A stretch of 64,000 nucleotides of DNA, taken from Stachybotrys elegans (lineage: Eukaryota; Ascomycota; Sordariomycetes; Hypocreales; Stachybotryaceae). Location: assembly GCA_020746835.1 (NCBI GenBank), contig JAGPNK010000044.1, forward strand, positions 1 through 64,000. Direction: 5' to 3'. Shown here piece by piece: positions 6,381-64,000 of the stretch. Under the pieces are notes generated by a model. The model worked only from the letters and a program-made list of their open reading frames with translations, was not told the origin of the DNA and ran no database searches. Position 1 is the stretch's first letter. Every line of letters begins with the position of its first letter. The translations under genes and the position numbers were made by a program.

Positions 6381-6417
6381 CTAATACAATCCTAGCTATA
6401 GTACCTAAAGATAGGTC

Positions 6418-7098: not shown

Positions 7099-7099
7099 A

Positions 7100-8060: not shown

Positions 8061-8063
8061 CTC

Positions 8064-8617: not shown

Positions 8618-8619
8618 AG

Positions 8620-9320: not shown

Positions 9321-9325
9321 CACAA

Positions 9326-10523
9326 CTAGTTGGCTCTGGGGCCATTGTCAGCGGTCTTGTCCTTGATGTTGATTTCGTATCCCTTGGTATGCATAATATG
9401 CCCCCCTCTCTCCTGATCGCTCGGCCCCGACCCAACATTAAAGCGGGCTTGAACTTCGTTATAGTTGGGAAGTATAGCCACCTCATCGCGAACAGGATTG
9501 TCTCGTCTTGACTGGCTGAAACTCCAGATCGTAGCAGTCAGAAGCACTGGGTTTGTTTGACCCAGAGCCCCTGCTTCCATGAGTCCACTGCCTCAAAGTC
9601 AAGAGTTTGACCAGTGATGAAGCAGCAATTGAGATGCGAATGAAATCCATCTTAGTCAATGCCCAGATTGCGGGGACACAGACAATCACCAAGCATTGCT
9701 CAATGCCCGACTAGAGGATAATCGAACTTGGATTGTCTTCATAATTTTGTAGTTAATGATAAGGCCATCATCGAAGCGAGTCCAACCTTACGACGCAAGG
9801 ACACATTGAGACGACTGATTATTATCACGGTAAACAGGACATAGAGTAAGTCGGAAAGGGTAAGCAGAGCTGAAAACGCGTTACTGTATATTTCAATGCA
9901 TAAGCATGGCCTTCGGGAGATATCTATACCTTGAATGTTGTCGACAATGTTTCTGGAAACTGTTGGAGGTCTCCGGTGAGCTGGTGTGAAAGGATCCCAT
10001 AAACCTTGAATGGGGTCTGCTTGCGTCCACAATACGGGCGTACATCCAATAACTAATGCTGTCAAGAACCACTCGAACCAAATCTTTGTGCCGAAAAGTC
10101 GCAGAAATAGCAAAGTTAACGAAATCCTGGCCATGGTGGAGGCAGCAAGATTTGATACGACAACAATAAAGTTCCACATTTGGATGTTTATAAGTTGCGG
10201 ATCGTAGGTCGGGTCTCTATCGTGCTGCCCGAGACCCCAGTGAAATGCTACGGTATAGCATGATTGGCAACCCATTTGCATGGCCTTTTCTCGGCATATC
10301 AGCAACGAAGAGTATGTTTTGAGGGAAAGCTCACCAGTGCGATCAACATGGTCCAGTCATCTGCCCCGAATATTCGTGATCTGATTCGCGAATAGCACCG
10401 CAAAACCACGACCACTATTGCAAACCCCAGCATTGTCCACGTCACAGCCATGATGACTGGTCCACGGCCGGGGTCTCCAGGATTTTCAGGAGGGGGAAAG
10501 TCTGACCGGTTTGTCGAGGACAT
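9326..10523 (-). pseudogene. Pth11/rhodopsin-like fungal integral membrane protein, decayed
   Basis: Exon 1 (10335-10523) starts at an ATG and carries the first helix (VTWTMLGFAIVVVVLRCYSR), ending in the family's DDWTML motif. A 50-bp GT-AG intron (10285-10334) follows. The next exon (to 9739) contains HWGLGQH, several helices, a QGLWDP segment (the usual CxPxxALWDP region) and IISRLNVSLRRKVGLASMMA, all in family order. It then hits a stop at 9739, where normal members continue with two more helices. Fragments of the expected tail occur out of frame down to 9326 (an ILPNYNEVQARF-like segment). Members are plasma-membrane proteins with seven helices; some are non-canonical receptors. This copy seems disrupted in its last third, though an unrecognised intron is possible. 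Confidence 0.62.
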
Positions 10524-10529
10524 GAATTA

Positions 10530-11005
10530 GTCATTAAGAGAAAGGTTGACATATGGCGGAATAGAAAGCTTGATGTAGAAATGTAGGAATCAAACTCCAG
10601 CTTTGGTGGTTAATACCAAGCCTCAGTAGTTCTACTTTTCCAGTGAATAGTTGTGTCCCCCTTTGTGGACAGGGTTCTCGTAATAGATCCTCATGCATAA
10701 CGAGCACCCTCACAGCTTCGTTATTCCAAACCGTTTTACGCGAGGCGGTCAAAGGGGCAAATAGGCCCGCCATTGATATCCCACACAAAGCTGTTGGGTT
10801 GCATTCCCATCGGACAATTTCTGCCAAATGAGGAAGTCCGAAATGTTTCTGTCCCCACTATGCAGGTCATGTATAGCACACTCTGTCTGGTATGGGGCCA
10901 AATTACTTTTGTACACTGGTTCCCTTGCTTTGCACTTTGACACTCGTTGCTATCGTTGATAGATACATCTTTTCGCAACCCATCCGTCTCCACACTATTT
11001 TACCA
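10530..11005. other. Intergenic, no supported gene
   Basis: Short overlapping minus-strand frames (for example 10736-10993, with several cysteines) lack an ATG start and recognisable motifs. I do not call a gene. Confidence 0.4.
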
Positions 11006-11008
11006 GCC

Positions 11009-11506
11009 TTAGACACATGTAGGAACGTTAGGGACTCTTTCCAAATACGACAGTAGATAAGCTGTTTCTTGGTGGCCAAGATACTCCCTCAGCTCAGTCA
11101 GCTTGCCATCCACCACACGAAATGCCATGACCACCGTCTGATGGTACAGAAAGGTACCGGGTCCCTCTCCCCTACCAACACCCTCCATAATGACCGTGTC
11201 CCTGTCTGCTGCAATGTGGGTTATCGTCAGATTGAAGTGATCAAAGACTCCCACAAACTGAGGAAACCCTGCAATTCTCTGCGACACTGGGCGGACGCCT
11301 GCAGCGCTGGTGCGTGCAGGAGATCCATTAATCCAGTATGGATCAGGTGGTGACGAGAACAATCCGAGGGCACTATCTTACTGGCCTGCATTGACCAAAG
11401 AAACATATTGTCGGACCAAATCTCGATTACCGCCCTTGTCTTGGGCATTTGTGACTTGCAGTTGACACAGGCCAGTAATGCCAAGAAGCGTACGTGTGAG
11501 GCGCAT
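11009..11506 (-). pseudogene. SnoaL/NTF2-like secreted protein with in-frame nonsense codon
   Basis: From the ATG at 11506 the frame gives a signal-peptide-like start (MRLTRTLLGITGLCQLQ), then NRDLVRQYVSLVNAG, the usual first helix of SnoaL-like/NTF2-like proteins. Codon 43 is TAA at 11378-11380. The same frame then resumes with LGLFSSPPDPYWING, VFDHFNLTITHIAADRDTV and FRVVDGKLTELREYLGH. That is the full family pattern of alternating helix and strands, and the frame ends normally at 11009. The length (about 165 codons) is normal for the fold. Members include polyketide cyclases and epoxide hydrolases, but the exact activity cannot be told. The stop fits a single C-to-T change (CAA to TAA). 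It sits between a membrane protein and a P450, which suits a metabolic-cluster remnant. Confidence 0.68.
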
Positions 11507-11509
11507 AGT

Positions 11510-12546
11510 AATGGACAGAATGCAGGTCGCCGTATTGAACAGGGGCGGCGGGCGTCCAGTCGCGTATAGTCCACTGTAGATGACGGGCTCTGATACTTTG
11601 GTTTTTCAACAGGCTAAGGATGAGGGACATCTGTTTCATAGGCACAGAAACGTATGTTAAATATAGAACGGTAAGACTAAGTTCATAGCCCATTGCAGCT
11701 TAACCGGATCCTAGCCTCCCACCCGCCACCAGTCTCGGAGAGGGTTTTCCACAATTGGACTCCGATATGCTATTCTTGGCCTCCACCCACACACACGACG
11801 CCGGTTGTCATATGAGACCCAACATTTGGCAGCGGCCCTCGCCACGCAATTTATTTTTAGTTCTTGGAGAGTCCGAGGTACTCAAGCCTTCCCCAGTGCT
11901 TTGTGGACAGCTAAGTATCATGGTTTTCTAGTGCGGCTTGATACCGTCTCGTCGTTAGAGGAGGCCACTTTGAAGTCACTGATTTTTATACTAACGGGAT
12001 ATTGCAAATTGGCCGACTTACAGACGCTGATGCATCTCATCCCGAACACTGTTCTAGAAAGATTGGCCGGATTGCAATCCATCCCATGATTATCAAAGAT
12101 AAGCGCGGCCGGTAAAAGTATTACTGTTCATGTAGAAAATTGTGATGTAGGTATTCTCACAATCAAGGCGGGTAAGAACTGGTGTCGCAATGTCTGTACA
12201 TATTATGGCGGCGTGATAAGGTCCGGTCCATGTCGCCAAATCGGACAGTAGGAAGCCCAGGGAAGATATTGTGGAGTGATGCATATTCTGTATGAGAAGT
12301 GCAAGCATATGTTGACATTGGTCCTTTTGTCCACAGGGTAGCGACAACTGTCTCTCTATTTTTCCTCACAACGAGATCCAGTGCATGTGATCGGACAAGG
12401 ATATATAAAAGCCCGCATCAGTCCTGCCACGGGAGAACAACCAACATTTACGTACGTCATAACTCTACCCCGCCCTCATTTTGCCATTTGGGCATAAATG
12501 ACTGCGTGATCACCCTCGAATTGACCACAAGAGTTCAGCGGCCAAT
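11510..12546. other. Intergenic region upstream of the P450
   Basis: Several short frames on both strands (for example 11805-12089 +, 12093-12347 -), none with recognisable motifs. The last few hundred bases probably hold the promoter of the P450 at 12547; a TATA-like ATATATAAA occurs near 12400. No other structure seen. Confidence 0.4.
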
Positions 12547-14317
12547 ATGCTTTATTTCCAACTACTTCTCCGGCTTGCCTCGGCGGTATTCGTAGCATGG
12601 CTCATCAAATTTCTTCTTGAGGGCGCTGCAATCCGCTTGAGGCTCGGCAAGTTAAAGAATCGTGGGCTTGTGAGTGTTTCTCCTACAAGAAGGATTACCG
12701 TCTAAACTATATTCTTAGCCAGTGCCTGAGCCGTATTCGATGCTATTTGGACATCTTCTTCTGATGAAACAGCTTCGAGAAGGCCTGCCACCTGACGCTC
12801 ACAGCACATATAGCAACGTCAGACTCGTCCAAGACTGGAAGCGATATTTCCCAACCGCCGTGGAATGTCCTCCTGTCATCTACCTCGATCTTTGGCCACT
12901 GATGTCTGTTCCATTTATTTATGTTATTTCTCCCGAGCTCTGCTCCCAACTCACACAGGAGGATCCCCAGCCCAGGCATCCCATGTTCGTCTGGGCGCAG
13001 TGGCCTCTTACCAATGGTCTGGATCTGTTGTCCATGAATAAGGCTGATCACAAACGATGGCGATCAATTCTAAACCCTGGATTCTCTCTCAAGAGCCTCA
13101 CCACTCAAATTCCAGTGTTGGTGGAGGAGGTAAGCATATTCGCGGACAACATCAAGGCTCAGGCAGGCAAGCATGGCACCTGGGGGCCTGTGTTCACCCT
13201 TTACGATCGGACGGCTTCGTTAACGTTTGACATAATTACACGCATATCTATGTAAGAGAACACTCTCTAGACATGAATCAGACAGCTTATGATGCCAGTG
13301 GACTTTGTGTCCACGAACAGACAGATGGCCCCGGAGTATTGTTTACCGCAATGAAGGGGCTAATTGCTTGTTGCAAGATTGCAAGTATTTTCAATAAGCT
13401 GGAGCGCATGACCCCATCATTCAAGAGGCGCATTTTGTCCAGTGATATGGCTATTCGACACATTGTGCAACCGCAGATATTGAAGAACAATTCAGACTCG
13501 GAACATTACAAATCAACCATTGATCTGGCCCTCAGAGATCTGAGGGCAGTGGATGGACAACTGGATCCACGGTTTTTGGAGATCATGATCGCAAACATGA
13601 AGCTATTCCTATTCGCAGGCCACGAGACAACTGCCCAAACTCTGTAAGAAGCCCTGTTTCGAGTTGTGATAGAAGGCTGACAGACACAGATGCTGGGTCC
13701 TGTACGAGATCCATAAGTATCCTCATGTCTTGAGTCAGCTTCGGACAGAGCACGACAATATTTTGGGCATTGACACGGCCTTGGCAAAAGACACTCTTAT
13801 ACGATCGCCCCAGGTGCTAAATGAGTTGAAGTACACGTCAGCGGTTATCAAAGAGACTTTGAGACTACACACACCTGCTGGTAGTTTACGCTTAGGAAAT
13901 CCCGGTTTTGTGTTGGTGAAAGACGGAAGACAATATCCTGTATACGACTCGGTTATCCAAACTCTCCCAGCGGCTTCTCATATTCATCCCGACCTATGGC
14001 CTGAGGCACAGGCGTTTATGCCAGAGCGTTTCTTACAGCCTCAAGGACACCCATCGCATCCTCTCAAGAACGCCTTCCGGCCATTCGAACTGGGAAACAC
14101 ACGATGTATTGGTGAGGAGCTTGCTATGATGGAAATAAAGCTGGCTCTCGTCTTTACCATTCGAGAGCTTGAGTTCGACTTTGGCTGCAAATCGTGGAAT
14201 GAAGGCAAAGCCATCAATAAGGATCACATCAATGGTGAGTATACATATCGGGCCGGACAAGGTATGGGACATATTAAGAACAACCTTCCAACATCAGTTC
14301 GTCCAAGGGTATTCTAA
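12547..14317 (+). CDS. Cytochrome P450 monooxygenase
   Basis: The ATG at 12547 opens an N-terminal membrane anchor (LLRLASAVFVAWLIKFLL). Intron 1 is 12670-12718 in phase 0. The protein shows P450 motifs in order: WRSILNPGF (helix C region), I-helix FLFAGHETTAQT, intron at 13644-13689, K-helix KETLR (ExxR), the MPERFL motif, and heme loop FELGNTRCIG with the cysteine ligand. It ends at 14317, about the usual 500 residues. It is predicted to be an ER-anchored heme monooxygenase; the substrate is unknown. One problem remains: the frame before about 13251 and after 13273 cannot be joined by the visible GTAAGA donor and any nearby AG without a one-base mismatch. The gene is either frameshifted there or spliced in a way I missed. 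Confidence 0.85.
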
Positions 14318-14319
14318 GA

Positions 14320-15985
14320 AACATTAGCAAATATGGTCAATAATACATGGGTTCATGCTGAACCACGGTCTGCACCAAAACCCCAGTGCGCACTGCAAAA
14401 TAAGCTTCCATCATTAAACATATCAACAGATATAGCTATGTCCATATGGTAACGCGACTATTCCCCAAAATTCAGAGCGCTCATGCTAAGCCAGCAACAT
14501 TCCAAGGTGTAGGACAGCAACTTATTGGAGAACGTGGAGGAAGCGAATTGTCTTGTGGATGCTGAACCCTTGGGTACCCTATATTAGTGCGAAGCTTGCT
14601 TGTCCAATCCCTCTCGGGATTATATAATTGTTGGAAAGATATGTGAACCTGTTGTGGTATATCAAGAACTATAGAAGCTAAGCCTACAGTAAGCTCATAG
14701 AAATACAGCGTAATATTGTGCTGTCAATAACATGTTCTTGGCTATCATAGACACTGGGGGGCGGCTCAAGTAGGGTTGATTGTCTAGCGAGTGAAGTAGT
14801 CTTGTACGTGCCAGGCATACTTTCTCTGGGAAGTCGTCGGTCTTTGACAGTTGGTTTGACAAATGTGAAAGACTTCATGCTTGTAAATTTGCAAGTCCGG
14901 ATCCCAGGACGTTTTACGTGTGTAAGAGCAGTGCGAGGTTCCCGATGCAATACGGCATGATTTTGGGAAGGAGCTTTTCTTCTATAAACTGTCAAGGCTA
15001 ATTGTCAGATAGCCTTTAGGCTTACAGCATAAGGGGTCAGGACATACTTTGCTCCTTGTCTTCCGCAACGTACACGCCCTCTCTGGTGAATGCTTCCTGA
15101 ATCCACCAGTCATCTGTTTCATTCAATGCTAGTTGTGCATGTCTCTAATGGGCTTTGGATTCAATGCCACAGAAATCGGTTATCATGGTTACAAGATCTA
15201 GTGGAGGGAAATCTTCGATCTCGTCATTGGCGTCGAATGCGTGTAAGCCGTCAGATTGGGTAAAGCCCACGTCCGTTGCCGTCTGTACCAATGAACTCAT
15301 TGTCTCGAAAAAGAATCTGAACTCGCAGGTTACTTGCTTAACGCTGGATACGGTTATGCTCTCAAGCTACAAGACTTTGATATCACCCCCAATATCACGG
15401 TTTGGAATGAGGCTGTTTTAACCCAAACGGAGATCAGTAGAAGAACCTCTGGGGAAAGAATGCCTGCATAAAATGATAAGTAGTGGGATCTCAATAATTA
15501 TATACTTGGCGTAAATTTGAAAGCGTACTCGCTGACGTCCCGACGGCGCTGGCACCTACACCTAGGTTGGGTAGGGGCGGAAGAACATTGGCGTATTAGC
15601 CGTCGTCTGCGTTGAAGTCAGTCCCTTCCTGTTGGGTTGCTCTCTGCTCGAAATCCATAGTGCGAAATCGGCTATGCGTCCAGTTCTAGACGCCATAAAA
15701 ATGATTCTGTCATGACATCTGAGGAATCATTCAGCACAGAGCAGTCATTAGGCGAATGCTTTTAATTTCCATCAGCTACCGTGTCTCTTTAATCATCATA
15801 AACCATACTCCGCCGCCAGTCAGCTACTCTGCACGCTTGATAATAGCCTCATTATTGCTTTTCCTACTGGCCACGCCTGCCTTTGTTGCCGGGGCACCGG
15901 ACACTCACTACCTTGATGTCTCTCAGCTTATCCCTTGTTAACTGCTCCTTTCACCTTGGAATACATACCTCTTCTTATCATCATA
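14320..15985. other. Intergenic, no firm gene; dispersed repeat copy B inside
   Basis: Frames at 14684-14995 (-) and 15155-15421 (+) show no family motifs and I do not call them. A frame at 15756-15941 begins with a signal-peptide-like stretch (ARLIIASLLLFLLATPAF) within repeat copy B (about 15823-15990). It may be a tiny secreted peptide of 61 residues or just part of the repeat. Confidence 0.4.
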
Positions 15986-49133: not shown

Positions 49134-52100
49134 ATGTCCGCCCAGCAAAACAATACCACGACTGTGCAGGCAGAAAAAATCATTTCTGATGCCGCCAGTC
49201 GCTTCAAAAATGTCGTGACCCCTGATGACATCGCAACGTTCAACGCTACAACGGCAGATAGTGTGATCATCGCGCTCCGGGTGATCCAGGACGATCTCCG
49301 CAAGAAGCGGGAGAACCGGAATCTACGCAAGCTCGTTCCCTTTCTTGAGGGTCTGAAGAAGTATGGAGCAGCCGTGGATGTCCTTAGCAACGGGCTGAGT
49401 CCATTCCTACCCTTCGCGTGGGCTCCGATGAAACTCTTCCTCCAGGTAAGCAATCTGAACGGTTCAATTATTTTACGCTATCTTTATTAACGACGCAAAT
49501 GCCGGAAATGGCTAACTCTACTATCCAATGTACACAGATCACCGCCGACCATCTCGATGCTTTTGACAAACTTGTCGAGGCCTACTCAAAAATCGCCGAC
49601 ACACTTCCGCATGTCAATATCCTCGCCGAATCATTCAGCGACAAACCGTCGATGCTCACGAAGATCGCTCTATACTTTGCCGAATTGCTAGAATTCCATC
49701 GAAGAGCGTACAAGTTTGTCCGACGCCAATCGTGGAAGAGTTTCTTCATGACAACCTGGGGCCAATTTGACCTACGGTTTGAGTCGATACTGAAGAGCTT
49801 AACCTATTACAGCGACGCTATAATGCAAGAGGCGGCGACAATAGATCTCTACGAGGCCAGACGCTGGAGAGAGCGCTTAATGGACGAAGTCAAAAAGCAA
49901 GAGGCAGATAGGGCCGAAGTTCAGAGACTCGCACTCCTAGCATGGCTAGGCGTAGAGCCCATTCCACAGGAAGAGGAACAAGAAAAGCTACTCCGTGACT
50001 ATATGCCAGGGACAAGTGACTGGCTTCAGGGAACGTTGAAACCGTGGCTTGAAACGACCTCTTCTCAGCAGTCTATTGTATGGTTACATGGAAAACCAGG
50101 CGCAGGTACGCTGTATCCTGTGGTTTAACAAAGATAGCTGCTGATACACAAGCTAGGGAAAAGCGTTTTATGCGCGAGCCTGATCGACTCGTTGAAGGAC
50201 CCTTCCATGAGGGTCCTATATTATTTTTGCCAACATCATCATCCATCCGTAACGTCATCCCAGATCCTGAGAGCTCTTGTTCGGCAGGCCGTTGCATTCG
50301 ATGCGGGCCTGATCCCTGCGGCTTATATCAATTTCGCCGCCCGTTCTACATCACCTACCAGAAGTGTACTGAGAGAAATGCTGTTCGGCTCCGCTAACAA
50401 CCCCGGAATGCTGGCTGAATTGTCCATCTGTCGAGTTATCGTTGATGGCATAGACGAGTGTGGGGATGACGAACAAAAACTGATTGTGGGGGATTTGATG
50501 CAGGCTGCTTTAAAATCAGCATCATCCAATTGCAAGTTGCTCATGAGCAGTCGTGATATTCGGAACATTTCCAAGGCTCTCGGCAAAAGACGACAAGATA
50601 TATTTGAGATTTCTTTATCCCGAGAACAGCGATTTCTCAATGATTCCATTCGGAGCTATGTGGGCAAACGACTCGCTGATATAAGAGATGAGTCAACGGA
50701 CCTATGGGCTACCGAGGGAATGGTCAACGATGTACAGCAAGCAATGATAGAGAGAGCTGACGGTAAGCGGCAATTGTGATGTGCTGATGAATGGTTTATC
50801 TAATTTTTGTAGGAATGTTCCTTTGGGTCAGGCTCGTGTTGGACATACTTTCCGATATCGACAGCCTAGGGGAGTTGCACAGTGCAATCATGGCCATGCC
50901 GAAAGAGTTACCACAACTCTATAGAAGAATCCTCGACCGGATGTTCCATGGACTTACTGACCATCAGATAAATAATCTTCGCCGTATTCTTGCCTGGCTT
51001 GCGTTCGCAAAAAGGCCCTTGAAACGTCACGAGCTACTCCATGTGGCCTTGATCACCTATAATGATCTGCTGCCAACGAAACGGGATGTACTTCACGCAA
51101 CAGCCATAAACAAATGCAAACCCCTAGCAGAGGAGCTCCCCGGTGGCACTGTCGCACTTGTTCATTCCACGGCCGAAGAGTATGTTACAAGGAGTTTGAA
51201 GTACAGACAACAACTAATTGCGACAAGATATCTGCGAGAAAGCTGCCAGAGTCTCAGCTTCGACATTCTCAACTACAAGGAGTTAATTGCATATGCTTGC
51301 GTGTCAACATTAACAGAGGGTTTGGCTCTACTTGAACCTGACATACCGTTGTACACCCACTTGAACCATATTGCACAAGGGCTCTACACCATTCTCCCAT
51401 ATGCAATAGACTTTTGGACCCAACATATCCAGGAAGTTTCAATACCCGAGCGACAAGATATGCCGCCTCGATTGGCTGTGGAGCTATCGAGATTAGACTC
51501 CCGTCATAAACAGCTGCGCCAAAGATTATCCGATTCTTCGCTTGAACAACAAACTGATCCCTCTTCAACCAGCGACTCCATTTATTCATTGTTCTCGTGG
51601 TTCCAGAAGAATCACAAAGACCTCTCTGCCACGAATGGTGAAGGTAGGAGATCACCGTATTTTCGTAATGCTACTACTTCTAATCGCGTTCAGAGTGGCA
51701 GCAACTTGTTCAAAGTAAAGATCCAACGCTTCTTACTGCTCTGAGCGCAAAGCTTGATGGTCTCATCCAGTCATTAGCCTCCGGTCAGAATCATACAGGA
51801 CATATCCCCGAAGTGGATTTGAGAAAATTTCTGACTGCTCACGGCTCTTGCTTATTTCGATGTCGGTTTTTGCCCTGTACGAACTCATCGCTTGGGTTCG
51901 ACACTGATGGTGCCAGACTGGCACACGAACGACTCCACACCCAACGTCTTTTATGTCCGCAGCCCGGTTGCCGTATGGGCCGCATAGGCTTCCAGAAACA
52001 CCAAGATCTGAAACGGCACATGAGAGCCCATCATCAGGAAGGGGGCTTGCTCGTACCGCCAAAGGTGCGCCAGTCTTCAGCCAACCGGCTTTCTCCAGAC

Positions 52101-53387
52101 ACCAACCACGGAGAGATCGTCTTCGACGAGAGAGTAGAGAGTAAGTGTATCACCATCCTAAGTAAATTCTGTCATTTTTCTAATCGACGATTACACCATA
52201 AAGGGTGCCCAAACGGAATGTCGGGCGGCGTTCAGGTCCTTAAGGGCTCTGACGTGAGGTACGAGTTTCGGAACGGTAACATCATTCAACATGCGACCAC
52301 GGATTGGATCTACTTCTGCGACCTAGAAAAGCCCGATCGACTTCGCATTGACCATCTACACAGTTTAGATACCAAAGGGCTCTGTAACGATATTCGATTC
52401 AGTCATGGCGGGGACCTCGTGGCTTTTTCTAGTCATCTTAGCATCCAGTTGCACAGAGTCAAGACGGGACAATTTATCGCGGCATTCAAATGCTCCGATG
52501 GGTTGGCCCGAAGCGCCTGCTTTAGTGCTGATGACAAAGTTTTTGTTGCTGCCACGGATACTGGAAAAGTCATGGTAAGTGAAACCTTTTAAATTTGCAG
52601 TCTGATTTACTAAATAGAAGTCCGGGTGAGCTCATATTTTCTAGGCTTGGGACATTTCAACCAAACTTCTACTCAGATCAACCGAAATCGGTAATGCATA
52701 TGTAAATGATCTCATGATGAGTCTGGATGCAGGACTTCTCGCTTGTGCGACCAGAGATAATACTGTGAGACTCTGGGACATCATGGGCGATCAGAGACCA
52801 GAAGACGGCCAACGACTAAGCCTGGCTACTGACCCTTGGTGCATCGCCTTCTCTCCTGATGAGAAATCACTCATTGTCGGCTGTGAGAAAGGGGAGCTTC
52901 ACATCTGGGATCTGGTGTCAGGCTCGAAACAGTTCGATAGGCGGAATGGTCACCGTGATACAGTCAACAGTATTAGTTTCAGCCCCGACGGTCTACTCTT
53001 CGTCACAGCTAGCCATGACTCCACCGCAAAACTATGGTCACTAGCAGACCGAAACTGCATCAGATCATTCAATCCAGGATTGGTAGGTTCTAAAGACTCC
53101 CGCATATAGTTAAAGTCTAACAAACGTACAATTAGACCGATTGGATTTGCTCGGCTAAATTTCTTCCTGCTATAGGGAATAATAAAGCTAGGGTTATATT
53201 GTCTTCAGGTGATTATAAAATCCAAGTTTGGGACTTGGAAACAGGGGATGTTAAGCTGATCCTGATGTATAATAATGTATATCCTATAGATCTCTTAGAC
53301 GCTACTTTTTTTGAAAGCGGGTGTCTAATAGCTAGTGCTTCAGAGACTGACTCTGCTTATATATGGTCGATTTCTGTCTCATTTTAA
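49134..53387 (+). CDS. NLR-type STAND NTPase: DUF7708-like N-terminus, NACHT, zinc-finger-like linker, WD40
   Basis: Eight exons give 1274 codons in one consistent frame: 49134-49445, 49538-50105, 50157-50762, 50813-51643, 51694-52140, 52204-52574, 52645-53082 and 53136-53387. The N-terminal ~280 residues resemble the fungal DUF7708 helical domain (FAWAPMKLFLQ). NACHT Walker A (WLHGKPGAGKS) is completed across intron 2, and Walker B reads VIVDGIDEC. Residues about 800-880 hold C/H pairs (CLFRCRFLPC...HERLHTQRLLCPQPGC...KRHMRAHH) like C2H2 fingers. The C-terminus has WD40 units (VRLWDIMGD, LHIWDLVSG, AKLWSLADR, IQVWDLETG). Such proteins are cytosolic sensors in heterokaryon incompatibility and innate-like responses. 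Few WD units remain and they are diverse. Apparently intact. Confidence 0.88.
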
Positions 53388-53459: not shown

Positions 53460-53935
53460 CGTCGACCTGGACTCGTTGCACGACCTTCTCAGGATCCCCT
53501 TCTTACCCGACAGCCTCTTGAAGCAAAAGTCCGCGAGCTCCTGCTTGGTCTTGTCCCCAGCGAGGACTGCCTTGTTCATGACGAACCCGTCCGACTGCAT
53601 GACCTCGTCGCCCGTCGTGAACCCATACGGGATCAGATACGCGTCCGTCTGGTCGAACGTTGCCCCTTGCAGCTCGTGCCCTTGTGGATACAGCAGCCCT
53701 GCCCCGTGTTCATCTGCTCAACCATGGCCAGGATCGTCACCAAGTTCTTGACGTTGAGCATGATCCACTCTCACCTTACGACCCTGGGCGGCCAGTGACC
53801 TTGTGCCTGACCTTGATGACCCTCGTGGTCGTGTCCACCCTCAAGCTCTCGATCTTGTATGCGATGTCATCCACGTCTGCGTCGTTATCCTAATTATATA
53901 TGCCGCTCGACGCATGCTGGTCTAGTAGCGGACCG
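53460..53935 (-). pseudogene. Virus-like coding relic, unassigned
   Basis: Minus-strand frames carry the coding bias: DVDDIAYKIESLRVDTTTRV (about 53860), NVKNLVTILAMVEQMNTGQG (53730), TDAYLIPYGFTTGDEVMQSD (53600) and KQELADFCFKRLSGKKGIL (53510). Each sits in a different frame, so there are at least two indels and one stop. The order vaguely recalls the middle of an RNA polymerase largest subunit, but no diagnostic motif (such as DFDGD) is present and I leave it unassigned. It abuts, head to head, the capping-enzyme relic starting near 53940. Confidence 0.45.
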
Positions 53936-53939
53936 TGGC

Positions 53940-55940
53940 CATGACCATGTACCGCAACACGAACAGGTGCGTGATCTGCGGCCTCTCCAAGACCGTGGAA
54001 GGGCCGACTTCGTGCACGTGAGGTTGGGGTTGGACGAGCCCCCGGAGCAGATGTTGTGCATGTGCAGGACCATGAGCGAGCACATGTCCATGATCCAGGA
54101 CAAGTTCGCAGACTCAATGTCGCTAGTGCCTAAGATGGTGGATGGGTACATGAACCAGATCCCGTACAGGAGCGTGGAACCAGTCACGATCGTGTCCCAG
54201 ACCGCGAACCTGGAGATAGAACTGAGGATGAACTCTGACCAGTCCAAGCGCATATTTCAGATCATGTCTAAGGGCGGGTTCGGAGACATAGTCAGGTATG
54301 ATTAAGGAGGAGGGCTGCTTGTGGTGGACGGGCAAGTCCATGAATGTAAATGCGAAGGTGAGGTGGAGGTTGGATGGCGAGATGACTGAAGATGCCTATT
54401 GCCTGGCATAAGGTCATGCCCGGGTTCATGCTTGGGATTTGTACAAGTATATACTTATAGCCAAGATCATGCGCCCTAAGTACAAGACATACATGTTCTA
54501 GTATAGGTGTAAGGTCTTGGTTAGGGGCGTGCTAGTGCGGGTGATTGCGAGGAAGCATCTTGACACAAGGGCAAGCATACATACACGTTAGAGGTCAAGT
54601 TCATGTCCACGTCCTTACGCTCAGTCTTAGCAGAGATCTTAGACATGTGCAGGAGCATGAATACAATATTGAGAGAGGTTAACTACAAGCTCATAAGCCA
54701 GGTCAGGAGGGCAGACCATACCATTGTTAATATACAAGACACATCCCTGTATACAGGCATCTTCATGCTCAAGGCCGACAGTGTTAGGTGTATGTATTCT
54801 GCTACTCATTCGTCATGACATACACAGACAGCGTCTTGTGTGTGATCTTGGCCCAGTGCATCGACTTACCCACCCCCATCTACGAGATCACGTCCACACC
54901 CAACATCTTAGTCTCGGAAATCTTGATGGACGGGTCCTTGGTCTATATTGACACCTTGGCCATGAATGGGCACGTGGTCAAGCAGTGTGTACACGAGGAA
55001 GCCCACGACCAAGTTCTACACCCCGCCCATGATTGTGAGGAGGTGCTGGGACAAGATGCTGACTGTGAACCTGTTGTCATTCAAGAGCATGCCCTTAGAC
55101 GGCCTTGTGTGTGACCCCGTTCAGGACCTTGAGGATAAAGATCCCCACGATTGACCTTATGTACATGGGCGGGTCTCTGTTCGCATCCAAGGACGGCAAT
55201 ATGATTAGGATCAGGAAGGGGCACAGACATGAGCGAGAATGCGATCTACGAGATGACCTTTATAAGCTTGCCCACAGCAGCATGGTTATAGCCAGGAACC
55301 CAACTGAGTGCGCGTCCAAGACCAGGCCCAACAGCATGGACATAGTATGTCCTTCAGGGTCTACGAGATGGCGCAGTTGTATGCGTTCTCGACGAGGGGC
55401 GTGATTGTGGTCTTCGGCGCGGGCAGGTTCCAGGAACTGTACCAGATGAAGGTTAGGCAGTTCTTCTATATAGCGATCGAAACCGAGTTCGACATTGGGC
55501 GGGCGTGACGTGGCCGTGCCGTACAACATGACCAAGCCCATGAACAGACACATCTCCTTCGGGCAAGAGGGGCTATATGCTCTATGCCAAGTGCAAGTCC
55601 GAGGACATCATCGTGCAGACGAACGCGGCTATGTCCTCGATGGGGGTCTCGTGCCACATATCGGTCATTAACATATTGGCGTCCTCGGATGTGAGGTTGT
55701 ACCACGACAGGATGGACAAAGTCATCGGCAAGTCTCCGGTCATGATGACGTACATAGGAAGGACTCGTGAGACGCCCCGCTCGTGGTATCGACCTTCGCC
55801 AAGTCGACGTACGTGGAGCCGGTTTTGAACATGAACATGGTCCCGGGCATATGCTCGATCAAGGATATAAAGCCAGATGTATGGAAGGGCGTCGACGAGA
55901 GCACGTACCCCATTATGAGCAGGTGCGTGATCATGAGCTA
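53940..55940 (+). pseudogene. Virus-type mRNA-capping enzyme relic (triphosphatase, guanylyltransferase, N7-methyltransferase)
   Basis: A chain of plus-strand frames follows the layout of three-domain capping enzymes of large DNA viruses. The N-terminal part has NLEIELRMNSDQ (about 54210), like the ExExR strand of viral triphosphatases. LKADSVR (about 54770) occupies the place of the KxDG nucleotidyl motif, with its glycine replaced. EILMDGSLVYIDTLAMNG (about 54930) matches motif III/IIIa. VIVVFGAGRFQELYQM (about 55400) matches the SAM-binding loop of cap N7-methyltransferases, and coding continues to a stop at 55938-55940. There are at least six frame changes and several stops, so it is dead. 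Fungal capping enzymes are separate proteins and do not have this layout. Confidence 0.6.
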
Positions 55941-57960
55941 GTCATGAACCCGAGCGTGTAAATGGGCTTGTCTGGCATTTTGAGCATGGCGATGGTTGCG
56001 AATACGGTCATCTCCACAAGCGAGTACCTGGTCTGGGTCAACCTCGCGATCCCGTAGTTGCACAACCCCTTTGGAACCTTGGGCACGACCTTGGACTCGG
56101 GTGTGAAGATGCACTTGCCGATGGGCTTCTGCAAGGTCCTGAACGAGCGGATCGACTCGTACGCAGACGTCATCGCCGACATCTCCCCGATCAACCCACC
56201 GATTCCGCTCGTGATGTTCTTTGTGTTCACAAGCACTTAGGGCGCACCTTCTCCCCCGTTGTCGTCCACGATTACTAGCATGTCCATAAGCGGGATGAGC
56301 TCTCTAACCGTGCATTTGACACTATGCCTGAGCATAAGCTTGTCCCTGATCCTGAGTGTCTTTTACCATATGTATACATCTGCAACCTGCTGCCCGTAGA
56401 TCATACCCTCCATCGTGGGCACTCACTAGTGCTGGTCCTTGAGCTTCATGCTGGGCGTGATTACGCTGCAGTTGCAGGGTAGCGAATATATAATATTGCC
56501 CTCCCACGCAAACGCGCCTGACTCTGCCCACTCCTTTATGATGCTGACTGCATCCTCTGTGTTACGCTCGCGGTTGATAAAGGCAATGACCGTGTTCTTG
56601 CCCGCGATTCTTATCGGGGACTCGGAGCTGGAGCGCCATCTATATCCCGAGGTTTTCCCTGGGCTCGGCTAACAACAAGATCGAGCTGAACTGCTCGGCC
56701 TCGGTGGTGCGCTTTGGGGAGTCTACGCCCAGGAACTTCATCGTGGACTGCCATGCTGTCGACATACGGCCCCTCAAACATGAACGTGCCAGCCTTCACA
56801 CACACGCTAATGGGGCAGATCAAAACCCCGGTCGTGGTTGAGATGACGATCACCCTCTCGGCCTCGAATATATGCAAGACCGGCATGTTGTCCTCGCACA
56901 TGTTCTTCCACACGCGCAACAGCACGGCTTCGACCGTGACCGTGCACATGAAACCCTTCCATCTCAAGATCCAGTCGCCGGATGAGAACATGATCGTGGG
57001 CTCCATCGCGGATATGATCATATTCACGAGTTCGTACGTCCTCGTCGTCTCGATCCTCTGCGAGACCCCGAACACCAACGTCCTCGCCCTCCCGGCCCCT
57101 TGGTCTGCGGGGTTTAGCACACATCGATGAAGCCGTCGTGCCGCACGTGTCTCCCATCGAGAGCGCGGGGCATTAATGGCACGGCTCTTTCGCAGACCAT
57201 CCACAGTTGTGTTGAAGATCAAGCCCCTCCACCCATACTGGCACGAGTACGCCTCCATGGGCTTGTACAACTATAGCTGTCTGAGCTGTGGTTCATACCT
57301 CCAATACCGCCACGTTCGAGTACTCGAGGAGAGGCCCGTTCTTGATATAGCAGGTCGCGGTATTATCTGTGCATGGTATGCGTAGGCCTCACGTTGCCGG
57401 GTTCGAGTCCGCACACCCATCTCAGTGGCGTTAAGGGGCAGTACGTAGTCGCGTTCACCATGTCGGTCGCGGACAACGTCGCGTATATGGGCTTGCACAC
57501 GCACAAGGCCTTGTTCCTGTGGCCCAGGGTCAGGATCTGGATGCACATTGTGTACATGTCACTGGCGCTGGTTGTGTTCGAGTCCCTATCTGGGGCCAAT
57601 GATATGATCATTATCCTGCCGCTGTTGTTCCTGTAGTACCCGCTTGACATCCTGAGCACGGCCATTAATTCGATCGCAGTCAGGAGCTTGCACTCGGGCG
57701 AGAAGTTGGCCAGGTTCATGTTGACGTAGAGGAGTGTGGTCGAGTACGAGTATGTGCGTCTTGACATTGTCGTTTCGCACGGCCCGACCTACATCTCATC
57801 GTCTCCCACCAAGACCTTGCTGAGGCACGTGTCAGCGACAAGATCTTGTACCTGTACTTGAGCACAACATGGTCGGAAACACGAACACATCCAACTTGGA
57901 GATCCCCGGCACAAGCTGCATGACCAACCACCAGGTTGGGATCAGAGGCAAGGTTTACAT
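55931..57960 (-). pseudogene. Virus-type RNA polymerase second-largest subunit (RPB2) relic
   Basis: Minus-strand frames match RPB2 in order. NLANFSPECKLLTAIELM (about 57690) is near the N-terminal end. ELVNMIISAMEPTIMFSSG and RVIVISTTTGVLICPIS (57010-56820) correspond to the lobe ending in the TDAGRxxRPL motif. NTVIAFINRERNTEDAVSII (about 56590) sits where RPB2 has the VAVxxYxGYNQEDS motif. LTQTRYSLVEMTVFATIAML (about 56000) is near the GDKFxSRHGQKG region. Key residues are degenerate, and there are multiple frameshif and stop interruptions. The coding signal ends at 55931, before the C-terminal zinc-binding region, where it meets the opposite-strand relic almost base to base. The N-terminal part is also shorter than normal. 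Confidence 0.6.
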
Positions 57961-58665
57961 CTACAGGTAACAATGTACAACGGGACTTGATCCGCTGCGG
58001 GTATTCGTACAGCCCCTACTGCAAGCACGAGAACGAGTACAAAGCCATGCAGAAGGGCGTGAACCTGAACCAGTCCGACCACGGCGTCAGGTTCGTGAGA
58101 TGGACAAGCGCACGATCGTGTCGCCGTTCAAGTACGAGCGCAAGCCCTGGTTCTGCTGTAGGTGCTTATCCTGATATTGTCTCCGGTCGATGATGTGGCG
58201 ATGCACCCGTGCATGGCCTACAAGTTTCAAGTGAAGTGCGACGAGTGCATGGATTTGCCTGACTCCGAGAAGAAGAACTTAAACATGGGCAGGTCCACTA
58301 GTCCAACGCCGGGCAAGGAGTCGCACGTCACCTGCAGCATCGACCTCATCCCGGTCAAGTCTCGTACGAGGACATCACCAGAGCGCGAACAAGGTCGAGG
58401 GCTTGCTGTAGATTGCAGACGTGTACAGGCCAGGCCGTGCGCACACCCACCGACCGGTCCAGTGGCACGGACTCGTCGAGGAATTCGAGACCAATATCAC
58501 GGACCCCGTTGCTGACATGATCCAGACCACGGCCTCGCGCTTGACCGGGGACGACTACGCGAACTCGATTTGAACATGGAAGGGCGCTACCTCAAGTCCA
58601 GGTCCTCGTTCTTGGACCAGATCGGCCACGTGTACGAGGCGATGACGAGCGTTCCTCAAGCCTGA
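57950..58665 (+). pseudogene. Virus-like Cys-rich coding relic, unassigned
   Basis: Plus-strand coding signal with frame breaks. Pieces are DLIRCGYSYSPYCKHENEYK (58000), TIVSPFKYERKPWFCCR (58130), HPCMAYKFQVKCDECMDLPD (58230), VEEFETNITDPVADMIQTT (58500) and FLDQIGHVYEAMTSVPQA (to a stop near 58665). CxC and CxxC pairs suggest metal binding. No family recognised. It lies between two minus-strand relics (RPB2 and DNA polymerase), in the tight alternating layout usual in viral genomes. Confidence 0.42.
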
Positions 58666-59430
58666 TCGACTCGTAGGCAAAGAGCATTCCAAGACCTTGT
58701 TCATGCCCATCGCCGTCAGCAAGCCATCGAGCGCGCTCTTGATCCTGTCCACGACCCGCCTCTTGTTCACGTTCGTTATCTTCTCTCCAATGTCCATCAA
58801 AATGCTCTGCGTCCTCCCGTTCGAGTCCAGATGGGGCTGGCGGTTGATCCTCTTCTCGACTACCATCGACCTCTTGGGCACCTCGTCGTTCTGGATCGCA
58901 TGCATGACCCTGCCCGAACCTGGTCAAAGCCTCAAACATCTGCTCGCGCGTCATGTCGCTGTTGATCACGTCCAGGGCCTTCCTCATGACGTAGCGCACG
59001 TCCTTCACCGGCGCGAGCCCCTTTGTGTCCAAGAAGCCGTCCCACAATACACCCTCATATTCCTTCTTGCTCGATGTCGCGATCGACTTGTAGTTCCCCT
59101 TGATGTCGGCGCCCACCTGCTCGAACACTGTCCCCCTCATGAGCCTGTAAATCTTCCTCTTGATGCGCAAGCCCGCGGTTATGCACTCGGACTCAGTCCT
59201 GGCCTTAATGTGGACGAAGATTGAGTCGGTGCCCCTATATATTATATTATAGCCGTACCACTTTGCGACCTTAATTATCTTCCTTAGGTAGTCTCTAGCT
59301 ATATATATTATAATCTCTATATACGTTTTTAAAAATAAAACTCTATACTTACTTTTAGTTATACTAAAGAACTATTAAACTTTAGGGTATTTATAATTAA
59401 TTAAATTATATTTAATTAACTATTTATTCT
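58660..59430 (-). pseudogene. Family-B DNA polymerase relic (delta/NCLDV type), C-terminal half
   Basis: The minus strand reads YRGTDSIFVH at about 59236-59207, the place of the YGDTDS catalytic motif C; the first aspartate is lost. IKRKIYRLMRGTVFEQVGA and then SSKKEYEGVLWDGFLDTKGL (about 59075-59015) follow, matching the KKxYxGxxxx...DxKGxxxxRRD block diagnostic of delta-type family-B polymerases. KALDVINSDMTREQMFEAL (58980) follows, and frames shift to an end near 58660. Upstream, at about 59380, inside the AT-only block, LKFNSSL is a faint remnant of the Kx3NSxYG motif. The gene is thus half GC-rich and half AT-mutated. Protein-primed plasmid polymerases lack the KKxYxG block. Confidence 0.66.
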
Positions 59431-60560
59431 CTAGACTATTTTTCTATTTAAATAGCTTTATATATAAATATTTAATTAAATTTAAACTAATTATGTAATA
59501 TATATTTATTTATTTTATAGTTCTATTTATTATTTTAATATTTATATTTATATTATATATATTATAAACTTAATATACTTTTTAATTTTAACTTAAAGTA
59601 TAATTTAATATATTTTTTTAAATTTAACTTTATAGAGTTAAATTTACTATAATATTAATTTAATTAAATAATTTAAAATAATTTATTTTATTTATAAAGT
59701 CTTTATAATATAAACTTTTTAATTTATTATATTAAACTTAAATAATTATTAATAAATATAAAAATTATATATTTAATTTATAAATTAATAAAAAAATTAA
59801 GTTAATAATTTAAATATTTAATAATTAAATTATTTAATTTTTTAAATTTAAAACAGTTATTTATAAAATTCTTTTTAATTTTACTTTTTTTAATTAAAAA
59901 TACTTTTATATTAACTTTTAAATTAAATTTTTAAAATAATAATATTAATATTTATTTTAAATTAATAGCTATTAAATAGTAAATTACTATTATATTAAAA
60001 AACTAATACTTTATTTAAATAATTTAATACTTAAATAATAAAGTTATAATAAAAAAAAGTATATAATAAAAAAAAGAGTATATAGTATAGAGTATAAGTA
60101 GTAAAGAGTAAATAAATAGTAGAGATAGTATTTAGTACTTTAATAACTAATATAATTATAAATAATAGAAAAAAATAATAATAAAGCTATTATTAAACTG
60201 TTTATATAGAGTAGCTAATTAGTTAAGTAATTAAGCTATAAATAGCTATAATATTATAAACTATATATATATAAATATATAATATAATGGAATATTAAAC
60301 TAGCCTTATATATAAAAAGTTAAAGTAAAGTTAGTATTTAGTTAAAAAGCTTTAATTAACTTATTAAATAAAGTTATATTATAAAAGCCTTATTATAATT
60401 TATATTTAAATAAAGAGTACTATTAGTAATATTAATAAAAAGCTTTAATAATATTAAAAAAGCCATTACTTTAAACTACTAATAAAGAAAAGCTTAATTT
60501 ACCTTATTTATAGCTATATAAAGCTTTTAAGTCTATTTTAAATTCACAATGAACTCTTAA
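59240..60560. other. AT-only RIP-type block, beginning inside the polymerase relic
   Basis: Composition switches to almost pure A/T at about 59.24-59.29 kb, within the DNA polymerase relic. The first ~200 bases still seem to align with that polymerase. Beyond 59.5 kb I can recognise nothing. Confidence 0.55.
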
Positions 60561-60569
60561 ATAGTTTAT

Positions 60570-63560
60570 TAATAGGGGGGGTCTAATCTATGCTAAAGTA
60601 GTAGTCTACCCTAGATATTATACCTATAGAGTTTATTGAGTTAGGTTTAGAAGAGTTTATTAAACCTATTTCCTCCCCCTCCCTTCTCTAGATATATTCT
60701 ATTCTACTACTAGCCTAATCTTATTAGCTAGTAAGCTATTTTAATTTAATTAAAGTAAAGTAAGGTAGTTAGTTATATAATTAAGCTAAATATATATTAA
60801 ATTTATATTAATTAAACTAAACTCTAGGCAGGCACTAAATTCATACTCTATAGTCTATAGTATAAAAGCCATATATATACAGTCTCTACTAGCTAGCTAG
60901 CTAGCTAATTATATAATATAGTAGAATAGAACTATTTATATAGTTTAATAACTATATATACTTAATATATATAGTATATAGTATTAGTATTTTAATAAGT
61001 AAGATAGATATATACTTAAAGAATAAGTATAGTATTAATCCTAAGTAAATATAATTAATTATTAAATAAGTTAAAGATCTATTAACCCTAGCTATATTGT
61101 AGAATAATCTTATTAAGCTCTAAAAGCCTTTACTAATAATTTAGTCCCTTAGCTATTTATAGTCTCCAATAATAGATAGGATTATCTATATCTAGTATAA
61201 CTATATTGTCTAATTAATTTAGAAGATATAAGAGTATGCCTAGTATAAGTATAGCTAGGTTAATATCTAGTAGAAGGGTAGGAATATTAAGCTTAAGCTT
61301 TAGAGAGACTAAGATATTCTCTAGGTATAAGGCATTCTCTACTAGTACTTCTTTACTAGTTAAAGGGGTAGTGGGTAGTTTAAGATAGACTATAGTTAGG
61401 CTTTTAAAATAAAATACTAAATAAGTAATAATAGTTTTGTTTTTAAAGCTTTATAATTTATAAAATATAAGTATAAGTAGTTAGTAAAAGAAGTTATTTA
61501 ATCTATCTTTAGTAAGCTAGAGCTAAATATATGGCTTGAATAAATAAAATAGATTTACTACCTCTAGGGATTTATAGTAGAGAAGGTATTTCTTATATTC
61601 TAGACCTCTAAAGATAATAATAAAGACATTGTCTTTTATTATAAAATACTTAACTAAATACTAAATGCTATATTTAAAAATATATATATAATGGATATTA
61701 ATACACTTATTAAAATAGAGTAGAAAGAGCTAAGTATTAACCCTTTAAAGCTACTATATTATAAGCTAGATAGTAATAGCTAGGTTTAATATAAAAATAT
61801 ATAGTATTAACTATTTAACTTCTAGCTATACTTAGAGATATACTAGAATGAGTTTAAAAGACTATATACTTTTATATAGATATAGTTTAATTAATATAAC
61901 TAGTGGATTAATATAGTAGAGAATAAGCAAGGGAGCTATATAGATTTAAGTATAGTAGTTTCTCTATACCTTGAGTTTCTCTATAGCCTACTTAACTATA
62001 TAATTAAGGGAGAATCCTAGTAAAATATATTAATTAATAGACTTTCCTTTTTTAGTATAATAGACTTAAAGAGATAGGTAGACCCCTTATAGTTCACTAC
62101 TAATCTATTTACTATTATAAAAATAGTATAACTTTTTATTATACTAAAGGCTACTATAGAATAAAAGGAGGCTAAGTAGTATAGAGAAGAACCTAGGTAT
62201 ATACTATTAAATTAAATATAAAAGTATATAGTAAAGTATATAGTAAAGCTTTATAATAAATAGAAATACTTATATTTAATATATTAGATATATTACCTCT
62301 ATATCTATAGGACTATAATTTACATAACTATACCTACTAACCCTATACTATTCTGGGATAATAATACTATTTCTATATATAGCATTTAACTATTAATTAG
62401 TACTCTATAGAGTATAATATAAAAGCTATATACCAAGATATTATCTAATCTTAAATAGGTATATAAGTACTATGGAAAAGGAGTGAATCTTCTAGCTATT
62501 CTCTAGGATAATATTATAGATAATATAGGGAAAACTAAACCTAGTTACTTTTTTCTAGCTAATAATAGAAATACTTGGGTTAGTAAAGGAGAGAACTGGA
62601 TTATATACTAAATTTAGAAGTTCTACTATATCTTGGCTAAGTGGTAGAACTTACTAAAGAAGGGAAAAGCTAGAGTATTCTAGTATAACTTTAGGATATT
62701 TTATAAGTGCTTATAGCTTCTTATATATATTATAGACAGCTAGCTAGAATAAGTAATAGAGATTTACTTTATTTAATAAGCTAATATTTATTAGGTAGGG
62801 CTATATAATATCTTCTTTATATATAGTATTATTTATATAGTAATATATTATTATAAAAACTTTAACTAGACTTAAAGAGTAAAGCCTATCTATAGGTTTC
62901 TACTCTAACTAGTAGTAGAGCTATTTATCTAGTTTCTATAGCTTGTAGTCCTCTTTTAGAAGAGTGTAGAGGCAAAGATTAAATCCTAGTTAAGCTTCTC
63001 TCTCTACCTCTAGGCAATAGAACCATAGGTATAAAAGATAGGCATTATAGATACTACCTTGGCAATAATACTACTCTCTGTCTAGATAACTAACTATTAT
63101 AGTAGGATAATAAAGTAATATATAAAGGGTCTATTTGGCATTAAGATTCTCTTTAGTATATAGTGGTATATTACTATTTCTATTGTCTTTTAATATATAA
63201 GGCAGCCCTTTAATATATAGGGGTTTTATAGAGGTATGCATGGTAATAAACCAGAGTTAGATAATAAGCTAGTTAATCTATAAGCTAGCTATTTATTTTA
63301 TATAGTGAGCCTAATTTATATAAGGGAGATATATAATGGGTCTATTAATTTAAGGTACTTAAAAGAGAAATATCTCTAGATTAGCTATAAATGGCATAAA
63401 CTCCTTAAGGTAGATATATATATAGTTTTATAACTAAATAAGGATTTAGTAGCTATATTAAAGGGCTAAGTTCTAGAGCTATTATATACTAGAATTCCAG
63501 CTACTATATATTTAACTGGAATAGTAAATACTAAATAGAGTATATCTAGAGATAAAGCTC
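60570..63560 (+). pseudogene. RIP-decayed TLH-type (telomere-linked helicase-like) gene, region upstream of the helicase
   Basis: Through many stops, the plus strand from about 62540 reads in the order of a domain common in fungal TLH-like genes: NxxTWVSKGENWIIY (62560), a long helical part, LYNIFFIYSIIYIVIYYYK (where relatives have RNIFIxxGxVxFVTRYHKG), RVKPIYRFL (62877; relatives xxKIIHRYLP), VVELFI...LVVLF (relatives VGELLVYYLWLVLPF) and finally SLIYIREIYN...YKWHKLL (63300-63410; relatives AGLIYARGxxE...AWHRFL). A Cys2His2 region is expected upstream but not readable. The RecQ helicase domain would lie beyond, possibly past the window end. Relatives are frequent near fungal telomeres but also dispersed. 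Confidence 0.6.
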
Positions 63561-63644
63561 TACTAGAGATAGTAGGTTCTACTAGCTTAATAGATTATTT
63601 TATAATACTATAGAGTTTAGTACTATATATACTAAACCTTTTTA

Positions 63645-63905
63645 AACTAATAAACTCTTTTAGTATAATAAACTCTTATATACTAATAAACTCTTTTAGT
63701 ATAATAAACTCTTATATATTAATAAACTCTATTAGTTTAATAAATCTTTATACTTTAATAAACTTTACTAGTCTAATAAACCCTTATAGATCTATAAACT
63801 TAAGTAAGTTAATAAACTCTTCTAGTTTAATAAACCATTATATATTAATAAACTCTACTAGTCTAATAAACTCTTTTAGCTTAATAAACTCCACTAGTTA
63901 AATAA
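63645..63905 (+). repeat. 18-bp degenerate tandem repeat, about 14 units
   Basis: Units resemble TAATAAACTCTTTTAGTA in steady 18-base phase. On the plus strand they read as an open six-residue repeat around SLINSx for more than 70 codons with no stop, although surrounding DNA has stops everywhere. It lies just downstream of the TLH-like relic and could be a mutated coding minisatellite of the same gene. Confidence 0.8.
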
Positions 63906-64000
63906 ATATAGACTTAGAATATTTACTATATTTCTATAGTAAGCTAAATAAAGGGCTTATTAATTAACTCTAACTATAGCTAGTATAATTTAAATAGCTA
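63906..64000. other. AT-rich window end, nothing recognised
   Basis: Continuation of the AT-only block to the end of the window. Confidence 0.5.

Follow-up and report, generated by a model that had tools for sequence, protein, structure and literature searches.

How did genes of a kind found in large DNA viruses come to lie in a chromosome of a filamentous ascomycete? The locus that raises this question is a segment at 53.46-59.33 kb of contig JAGPNK010000044.1 of Stachybotrys elegans, within the window analysed here, which is the first 64 kb of this contig of 77,936 bases (the genome comprises 43.4 Mb in 61 contigs). An initial annotation had described positions 53460-59430 as a viral insertion of Nucleocytoviricota type, and this extent holds to within about 100 bases: the coding signal covers 53460-59326 and homology to family-B DNA polymerase (PolB) reaches 59317, but 59330-59430 is AT-rich and without a match. 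The observations that bear on the question are what is left of the genes, the order and strands in which these remnants lie, the damage to their frames, the two flanks of the segment, and a PolB frame that crosses the edge of DNA altered by repeat-induced point mutation (RIP). Together they support, with a probability of about 0.72, the reading that the segment descends from a large double-stranded DNA virus whose genes were of nucleocytoplasmic type, and that it has since decayed to a relic in the subtelomere of a RIP-competent filamentous ascomycete, beside an NLR-type gene. In their present state the frames could not make the enzymes, and we propose no function for the relic today. The features that carry the argument are as follows.

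54000 to 55938, plus strand: predicted capping enzyme, decayed, with 12 frame changes and 2 stops (score of a chain of collinear blocks)
54183 to 54737, plus strand: putative triphosphatase blocks (first strand at 54183; second strand and helix at 54567-54737)
54771 to 55109, plus strand: putative guanylyltransferase blocks KADSVR (the KxDG motif, changed), PNILVSEIL and MPLDGLV
55147 to 55347, plus strand: putative end of the guanylyltransferase (OB-fold part), with TIDLMYMGGSL, NAIYEMTFI and KTRPNS
55348 to 55938, plus strand: coding signal at the place expected of a methyltransferase, with a GAGRF-like stretch recognised by eye only
55948 to 57021, minus strand: probable RPB2, decayed, in blocks at 57021-56983, 56605-56510, 56362-56279 and 55965-55948
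58651 to 59326, minus strand: C-terminal part of a family-B DNA polymerase, with motif C at about 59210-59235 (Pfam and profile)
59240 to 64000, no strand, continuing past the window: RIP-mutated AT-rich DNA, starting within the PolB frame

As a sequence assignment, the identity of 58651-59326 as PolB is certain, in line with the initial annotation. The open piece at 58595-59371 (minus strand) matches the Pfam family DNA_pol_B (PF00136; E = 4.4 × 10−7), and a search of the whole genome with this family returned it (E = 1.5 × 10−5) together with six matches at host polymerases. With a profile of 42 PolB proteins, the piece obtained E = 2.7 × 10−9, the next of 1449 open pieces being at E = 5.6. 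The homology blocks are collinear and extend from ahead of motif C (YRGTDSIF) across the palm as far as about 58700, with a score reached by 0 of 120 shuffles; the last part alone (58560-58915) was not significant (32 of 120 shuffles), nor did the AT-rich DNA upstream of the frame give a significant PolB score (34 of 120 shuffles). A search of PDB sequences returned weak polymerase matches (best E = 0.0078), a protein search with the piece gave 44 candidates, none at E = 0.01, and no close viral relatives were found in IMG/VR.

The best single matches of the PolB piece are viral polymerases from IMG/VR (29.5 bits) and not, as the initial annotation had considered, fungal chromosomal genes, the best host polymerase being much weaker (19.6 bits). 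This difference argues against a chance cluster of unrelated pseudogenes derived from the nuclear PolB, RPB2 and capping genes of the fungus, as do the single-copy state of the segment today with no DNA similarity elsewhere in the genome, the succession of triphosphatase and guanylyltransferase blocks within one gene, and the unlikelihood of three separate side-by-side captures. All three functions are present in the nucleus, which would suit such an origin; on balance we regard it as very improbable.

The PF00136 type of PolB is common to Nucleocytoviricota, many other viruses and cells, and it bears on a further alternative, the nuclear capture of a cytoplasmic linear element of the kind found in yeasts (virus-like element, VLE). 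No match to the protein-primed, plasmid-type PolB family (PF03175), to which VLE polymerases presumably belong, was found in the genome, with a control that was weak; the linear plasmid that the initial annotation had kept in view thus did not appear. VLEs live in ascomycete yeasts and, as described in PMC6211774, resemble the segment in encoding a vaccinia-like capping enzyme, RNA polymerase and family-B DNA polymerase on one element. Their replication is terminal-protein based according to the same source, whereas PolB here matches PF00136, and the elements of three yeasts are given as more than 75% A/T (PMC4431711), whereas the segment has 54% GC; neither terminal-protein replication nor strong AT-richness is seen in it. 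A VLE origin is accordingly improbable, if less so than a chance cluster of nuclear pseudogenes.

Family profiles for the capping enzyme were derived from a viral contig found via a PolB motif, IMGVR_UViG_3300046454_001203 (1-14809), which encodes a PolB of 804 amino acids (aa), a helicase, part of RPB1, a protein of 1145 aa that carries a mannose-lectin domain, and a protein of 606 aa. Pfam leaves this last protein unnamed, but triphosphatase, guanylyltransferase and methyltransferase motifs can be recognised in it by eye. This contig is like the segment in having PolB and a fused capping enzyme together, and the profile of its 606-aa family finds the capping blocks of the segment. Its PolB, however, is not close to that of the segment (18% over 126 columns), and its other proteins gave no match beyond chance in the window or in the AT-rich island at 38-41 kb. 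Some of the 41 relatives of the 606-aa protein come from records of Linnemannia elongata and of a Mortierella, and viruses of this type may form a group tied to fungi. The first 33 relatives were used for ranking and 38 for the block chain.

The chain of collinear blocks over 54000-55960 scored 50.9 bits, a value that no null sequence attained in three sets of 120, 300 and 150; the maxima were 37.1 bits for triplet shuffles (n = 300), 34.7 for Markov sequences (n = 150) and 31.7 for 44 equal tiles of the window, and the controls gave 25.1 bits for the reversed profile and 23.5 for the opposite strand. The blocks follow in the order LEIELRM, YTLEVKF with a helix, and then the guanylyltransferase and OB-fold motifs as listed above. 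Taken slice by slice, the OB-fold part was strongest (0 of 300 shuffles, 236 of 300 for the reversed profile), followed by the triphosphatase (4 of 300, reversed 40 of 300), whereas the guanylyltransferase slice alone was weak and hardly better than its reverse (12 of 300, reversed 19 of 300). In the ranking of the 1449 open pieces, 54564-54815 (plus strand) came first, at an E of only 0.7, and 55099-55401 fourth; the former was also first for the triphosphatase slice (E = 0.21), the first strand alone was unranked, and the same helix piece had an RFC_C match (E = 0.0014) below the cut-off of that family. Frame-tolerant local scoring with a light penalty yielded a capping score reached by 1 of 180 shuffles, and heavier frame penalties left no capping signal (28 and 18 of 180 shuffles). 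The capping enzyme, as predicted from this block chain, is well supported as a whole. The host has its guanylyltransferase and its methyltransferase in two different genes, located on other contigs, which for these two domains agrees with the earlier claim that host capping domains are separate.

The RPB2 of the initial annotation was set aside at first, when a narrow profile (16 IMG/VR and 3 fungal sequences) failed, and a broader profile, which adds 40/72 phage-type subunits from the multi-subunit polymerases of the last viral scan, reversed this verdict. With the broader profile, the piece at 56240-56362 (minus strand), which reads IRDKLMLRHSVKCTV against the signature GDKxxxRHGxKG, ranked first of the 1449 (13.1 bits, E = 0.0041, to be taken as about 0.04 because ten slices were tried, seven and then three), and 56429-56668 ranked third for the preceding block, at an E of only 9.8. 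The RPB2 chain, on a slice picked after the match had been seen, scored 32.9 bits, reached by 0 of 180 triplet shuffles (57-60 of 180 for the reversed profile) and 0 of 150 Markov sequences, with a maximum of 25.8 among 74 tiles. Unsliced, the broader profile had its score on the minus strand reached by 1 of 120 shuffles (29 for the reversed profile), and it found no signal on the plus strand or in the capping gene. The N-terminal slice over 56640-57850 (48 of 150 shuffles) and the part after the supported blocks (74 of 150) stayed at chance, and the narrow profile on a stretch chosen afterwards was matched by 7 of 300 shuffles. An RPB2 remnant at 55948-57021 is thus likely, not proven.

Over its whole length, the segment has the composition of coding DNA with broken frames. 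In stretches of 150 bases, the GC contents of the three codon phases (position modulo 3) are on average 0.34 apart (0.12 after shuffling), about twice the value in the gene-bearing flanks; the z of this signal is 30, vs. 12-14 for those parts of the window that bear genes, and the reading phase shifts often. A codon model places 32 runs in five blocks of alternating strand, as in the initial annotation: 53460-53999 (minus), 54000-55938 (plus), 55943-57859 (minus, interrupted at 57091-57428), 57860-58650 (plus) and 58651-59326 (minus). The claim of decay made in that annotation is likewise upheld: leaving out two runs of 18 and 4 codons, 25 frame changes and 11 in-frame stops were counted in the remaining 30, the reading-frame decay expected of an endogenous viral element. 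The host RNA polymerase genes are open over long frames, and general sequencing error therefore does not explain these breaks. The G/C-rich third codon position noted earlier was found as well, at 0.80-0.89 in the runs; five other open reading frames (ORFs) of the window have 0.50-0.62, and three RNA polymerase genes of the host 0.62-0.73. This contrast is partly circular because the runs were chosen by a codon model favouring such codons.

The segment is continuous in the assembly with host DNA on both sides, as expected of an endogenous viral element. On the left it adjoins the following gene.

49418 to 53384, plus strand: fungal NLR-type gene (DUF7708, NPHP3_N, WD40), in several frames

Pfam searches with six open pieces of this gene identified DUF7708 (E = 1.4 × 10−10), NPHP3_N (E = 1.6 × 10−11) and WD40 (E = 3.1 × 10−20), with no match for the piece at 50791-51741, and the coding signal of the segment begins 75 bases past its last open piece. 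At the right edge, GC content drops across 59180-59359, from 0.52 to 0.15, and PolB homology continues as far as 59317. The window as a whole consists of 6 kb of AT-rich DNA, a part of about 50% GC that includes the AT-rich island, the segment, and AT-rich DNA that continues to the end of the contig. The RIP signature is strong in the AT-rich stretches up to 70 kb (TpA/ApT 1.5-1.6 and (CpA+TpG)/(ApC+GpT) 0.02-0.31, vs. 0.6-0.8 and 1.2-1.3 in the GC-balanced parts), and the segment itself is without RIP mutation. The contig ends in TTAGGG repeats at 77832-77934 (15 matches vs. 0.07 expected), 18.5 kb beyond the segment; none was found within the window. The viral-type segment is subtelomeric. 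RIP of this kind, together with the NLR gene, suggests a filamentous ascomycete as the host.

These flanks bear on the possibility of a contaminant or a misjoined viral contig, which the shortness of the contig (77.9 kb) might suggest. With a fungal gene on the left, a PolB frame running on into RIP-mutated DNA on the right and TTAGGG repeats at the end, contamination is unlikely, and decayed frames would be odd for a live contaminant; we rate this explanation as low as that of nuclear pseudogenes. What speaks most strongly against contamination and misassembly is a viral coding sequence that crosses into RIP-marked DNA on a telomere-ended contig. RIP is described as a process specific to fungi (PMC7882544), and its edge within a viral gene is a built-in mark of the stay of this DNA in the host nucleus.

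Several results weigh against a nucleocytoplasmic virus as the source. A tree of PolB (43 sequences, 126 columns, few known nucleocytoviruses in the set) left the piece unplaced, with 39% support and a branch of 1.87, and the 'delta-type' assignment of the initial annotation is not supported. None of the open pieces, taken singly, was assigned by Pfam to a capping or RPB2 family, and the segment is not among the genome matches of PF00562, PF03291, PF01331 and P0012. The narrow RPB2 profile scored its best segment piece at −0.8 bits, vs. 3.2 elsewhere, and was reached by 93 of 180 shuffles and later by 1 of 45, with the reversed form as good at 2 of 45. Capsid (PF16903), VLTF3 (PF04947) and D5 (PF08706) had no match in the genome, with silent controls for PF16903 and PF04947 and only a fragment of a virus present. 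Finally, of the three domains claimed earlier for the capping enzyme, the triphosphatase and guanylyltransferase are supported, but the methyltransferase is not shown: its slice score was reached by 84 of 300 shuffles, the reversed profile doing better at 20 of 300, and a search with a capping-methyltransferase pattern returned three unrelated stretches.

Part of this evidence would fit a large DNA virus outside Nucleocytoviricota, e.g., one like Naldaviricetes or a mirusvirus. Naldaviricetes have a DNA polymerase, LEF-8 as RPB2, and LEF-4 as a triphosphatase-guanylyltransferase without a methyltransferase. The chance-level methyltransferase slice, the unplaced PolB and a LEF-4 protein (PF05098, P0040) found as a distant match of the capping profile speak for such a source. 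Against it, coding signal extends about 590 bases past the last guanylyltransferase motif, which leaves room for a third domain, and no LEF family appeared in the Pfam scans of the pieces, though most decayed genes of any kind, the capping enzyme and RPB2 included, escaped these scans. Among Nucleocytoviricota, the fused triphosphatase-guanylyltransferase-methyltransferase is found in most lineages but not in every one, and the multi-subunit RNA polymerase (RPB2) is not in every lineage either. We consider a source outside Nucleocytoviricota unlikely, though the least unlikely of the alternatives. The viral insertion proposed initially stands insofar as a virus-type PolB, a fused triphosphatase-guanylyltransferase and a probable RPB2 lie side by side, continuous with fungal DNA; its assignment to Nucleocytoviricota, as opposed to another class of large virus, is tentative.

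If the segment is a relic of a nucleocytoplasmic-type virus, it could have entered by a single insertion through end-joining near the chromosome end. RIP would then have hit the right-hand part since that part, or an insert within it, was repeated, and the left 5.8 kb, single copy today, would have been spared by RIP, with indels and substitutions of the ordinary kind accounting for its decay. Flanking repeats at the segment edges amounted to one 12-base AT match, purine/pyrimidine (R/Y) words common to the segment and the AT-rich island to one 28-mer, and no RIP-mutated copy of the left side of the segment was seen on the same contig. We lean slightly towards the broader view that filamentous ascomycetes were infected by large DNA viruses of a lineage so far not sampled, with genes of nucleocytoplasmic type, and that viral DNA was caught in a subtelomere and mutated in part by RIP.

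According to PMC10640383, fungi are not known to be infected by any double-stranded DNA virus, and endogenous nucleocytovirus genes are reported from early-diverging fungi (PMC10640383, PMC5294986). In Rhizophagus irregularis, a 1.5-Mb endogenous region related to asfarviruses is described, with five markers found, which include PolB, a capping enzyme and the two large subunits of RNA polymerase; it resembles the segment in placing nucleocytovirus-type PolB, RNA polymerase and capping genes, with pseudogenes, in a fungal chromosome (PMC10640383). That element, however, lies in a glomeromycete and spans 1.5 Mb, whereas the segment lies in a RIP-competent ascomycete and is 5.9 kb long, subtelomeric and heavily broken in its frames. 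A link between Nucleocytoviricota and Ascomycota has also been claimed for virion genomes from the oceanic crust assigned to Ascomycota hosts (PMC9894930); as described, these are free virions of the mesomimiviridae with hosts inferred from co-occurrence and gene transfer, and the segment is likened to them by description, not by sequence. Among the matches listed in a search of the open-licence literature, no large-DNA-virus relic in an ascomycete chromosome was found, the published endogenous cases being from early-diverging phyla. New here, judged from the sequence, would be an endogenous giant-virus-type element in another host phylum, such elements being known in early-diverging fungi. 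It is an open question whether higher fungi are hosts of large DNA viruses, and an ascomycete relic, if true, would make it testable by genome screening. Ordinary searches can miss such relics, with frames often broken and repeated DNA erased by RIP; frame-tolerant profiles of capping enzyme, RPB2 and PolB could serve as the screening tool for ascomycete genomes.

Three further parts of the segment have a codon habit like that of viral genes, and their scanned pieces lack a Pfam match above cut-off.

53460 to 53999, minus strand: decayed coding run by the codon model, with 3 frame changes, 2 stops and a third-position GC of 0.89; no Pfam match for the pieces given
57429 to 57859, minus strand: decayed coding run by the codon model; perhaps the start of RPB2, which is not supported
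57860 to 58650, plus strand: decayed coding run by the codon model; no Pfam match above cut-off

Scans with Pfam (20 open pieces, then further ones), NCBIfam (10 pieces) and PHROGs (10 pieces) named PolB as the sole family, and PDB sequence searches with four non-PolB pieces returned nothing or unrelated proteins. Beyond the window, an Rfam scan of 64-78 kb gave no match. The 8 kb at 70-77.9 kb of the contig have about 34% GC and a mild RIP signature (1.3 and about 1.0), with no ORF of 120 aa in their first part and none of 80 aa in their last part. An 18-base tandem repeat of 14.4 copies lies at 63648-63906, inside RIP-mutated DNA.

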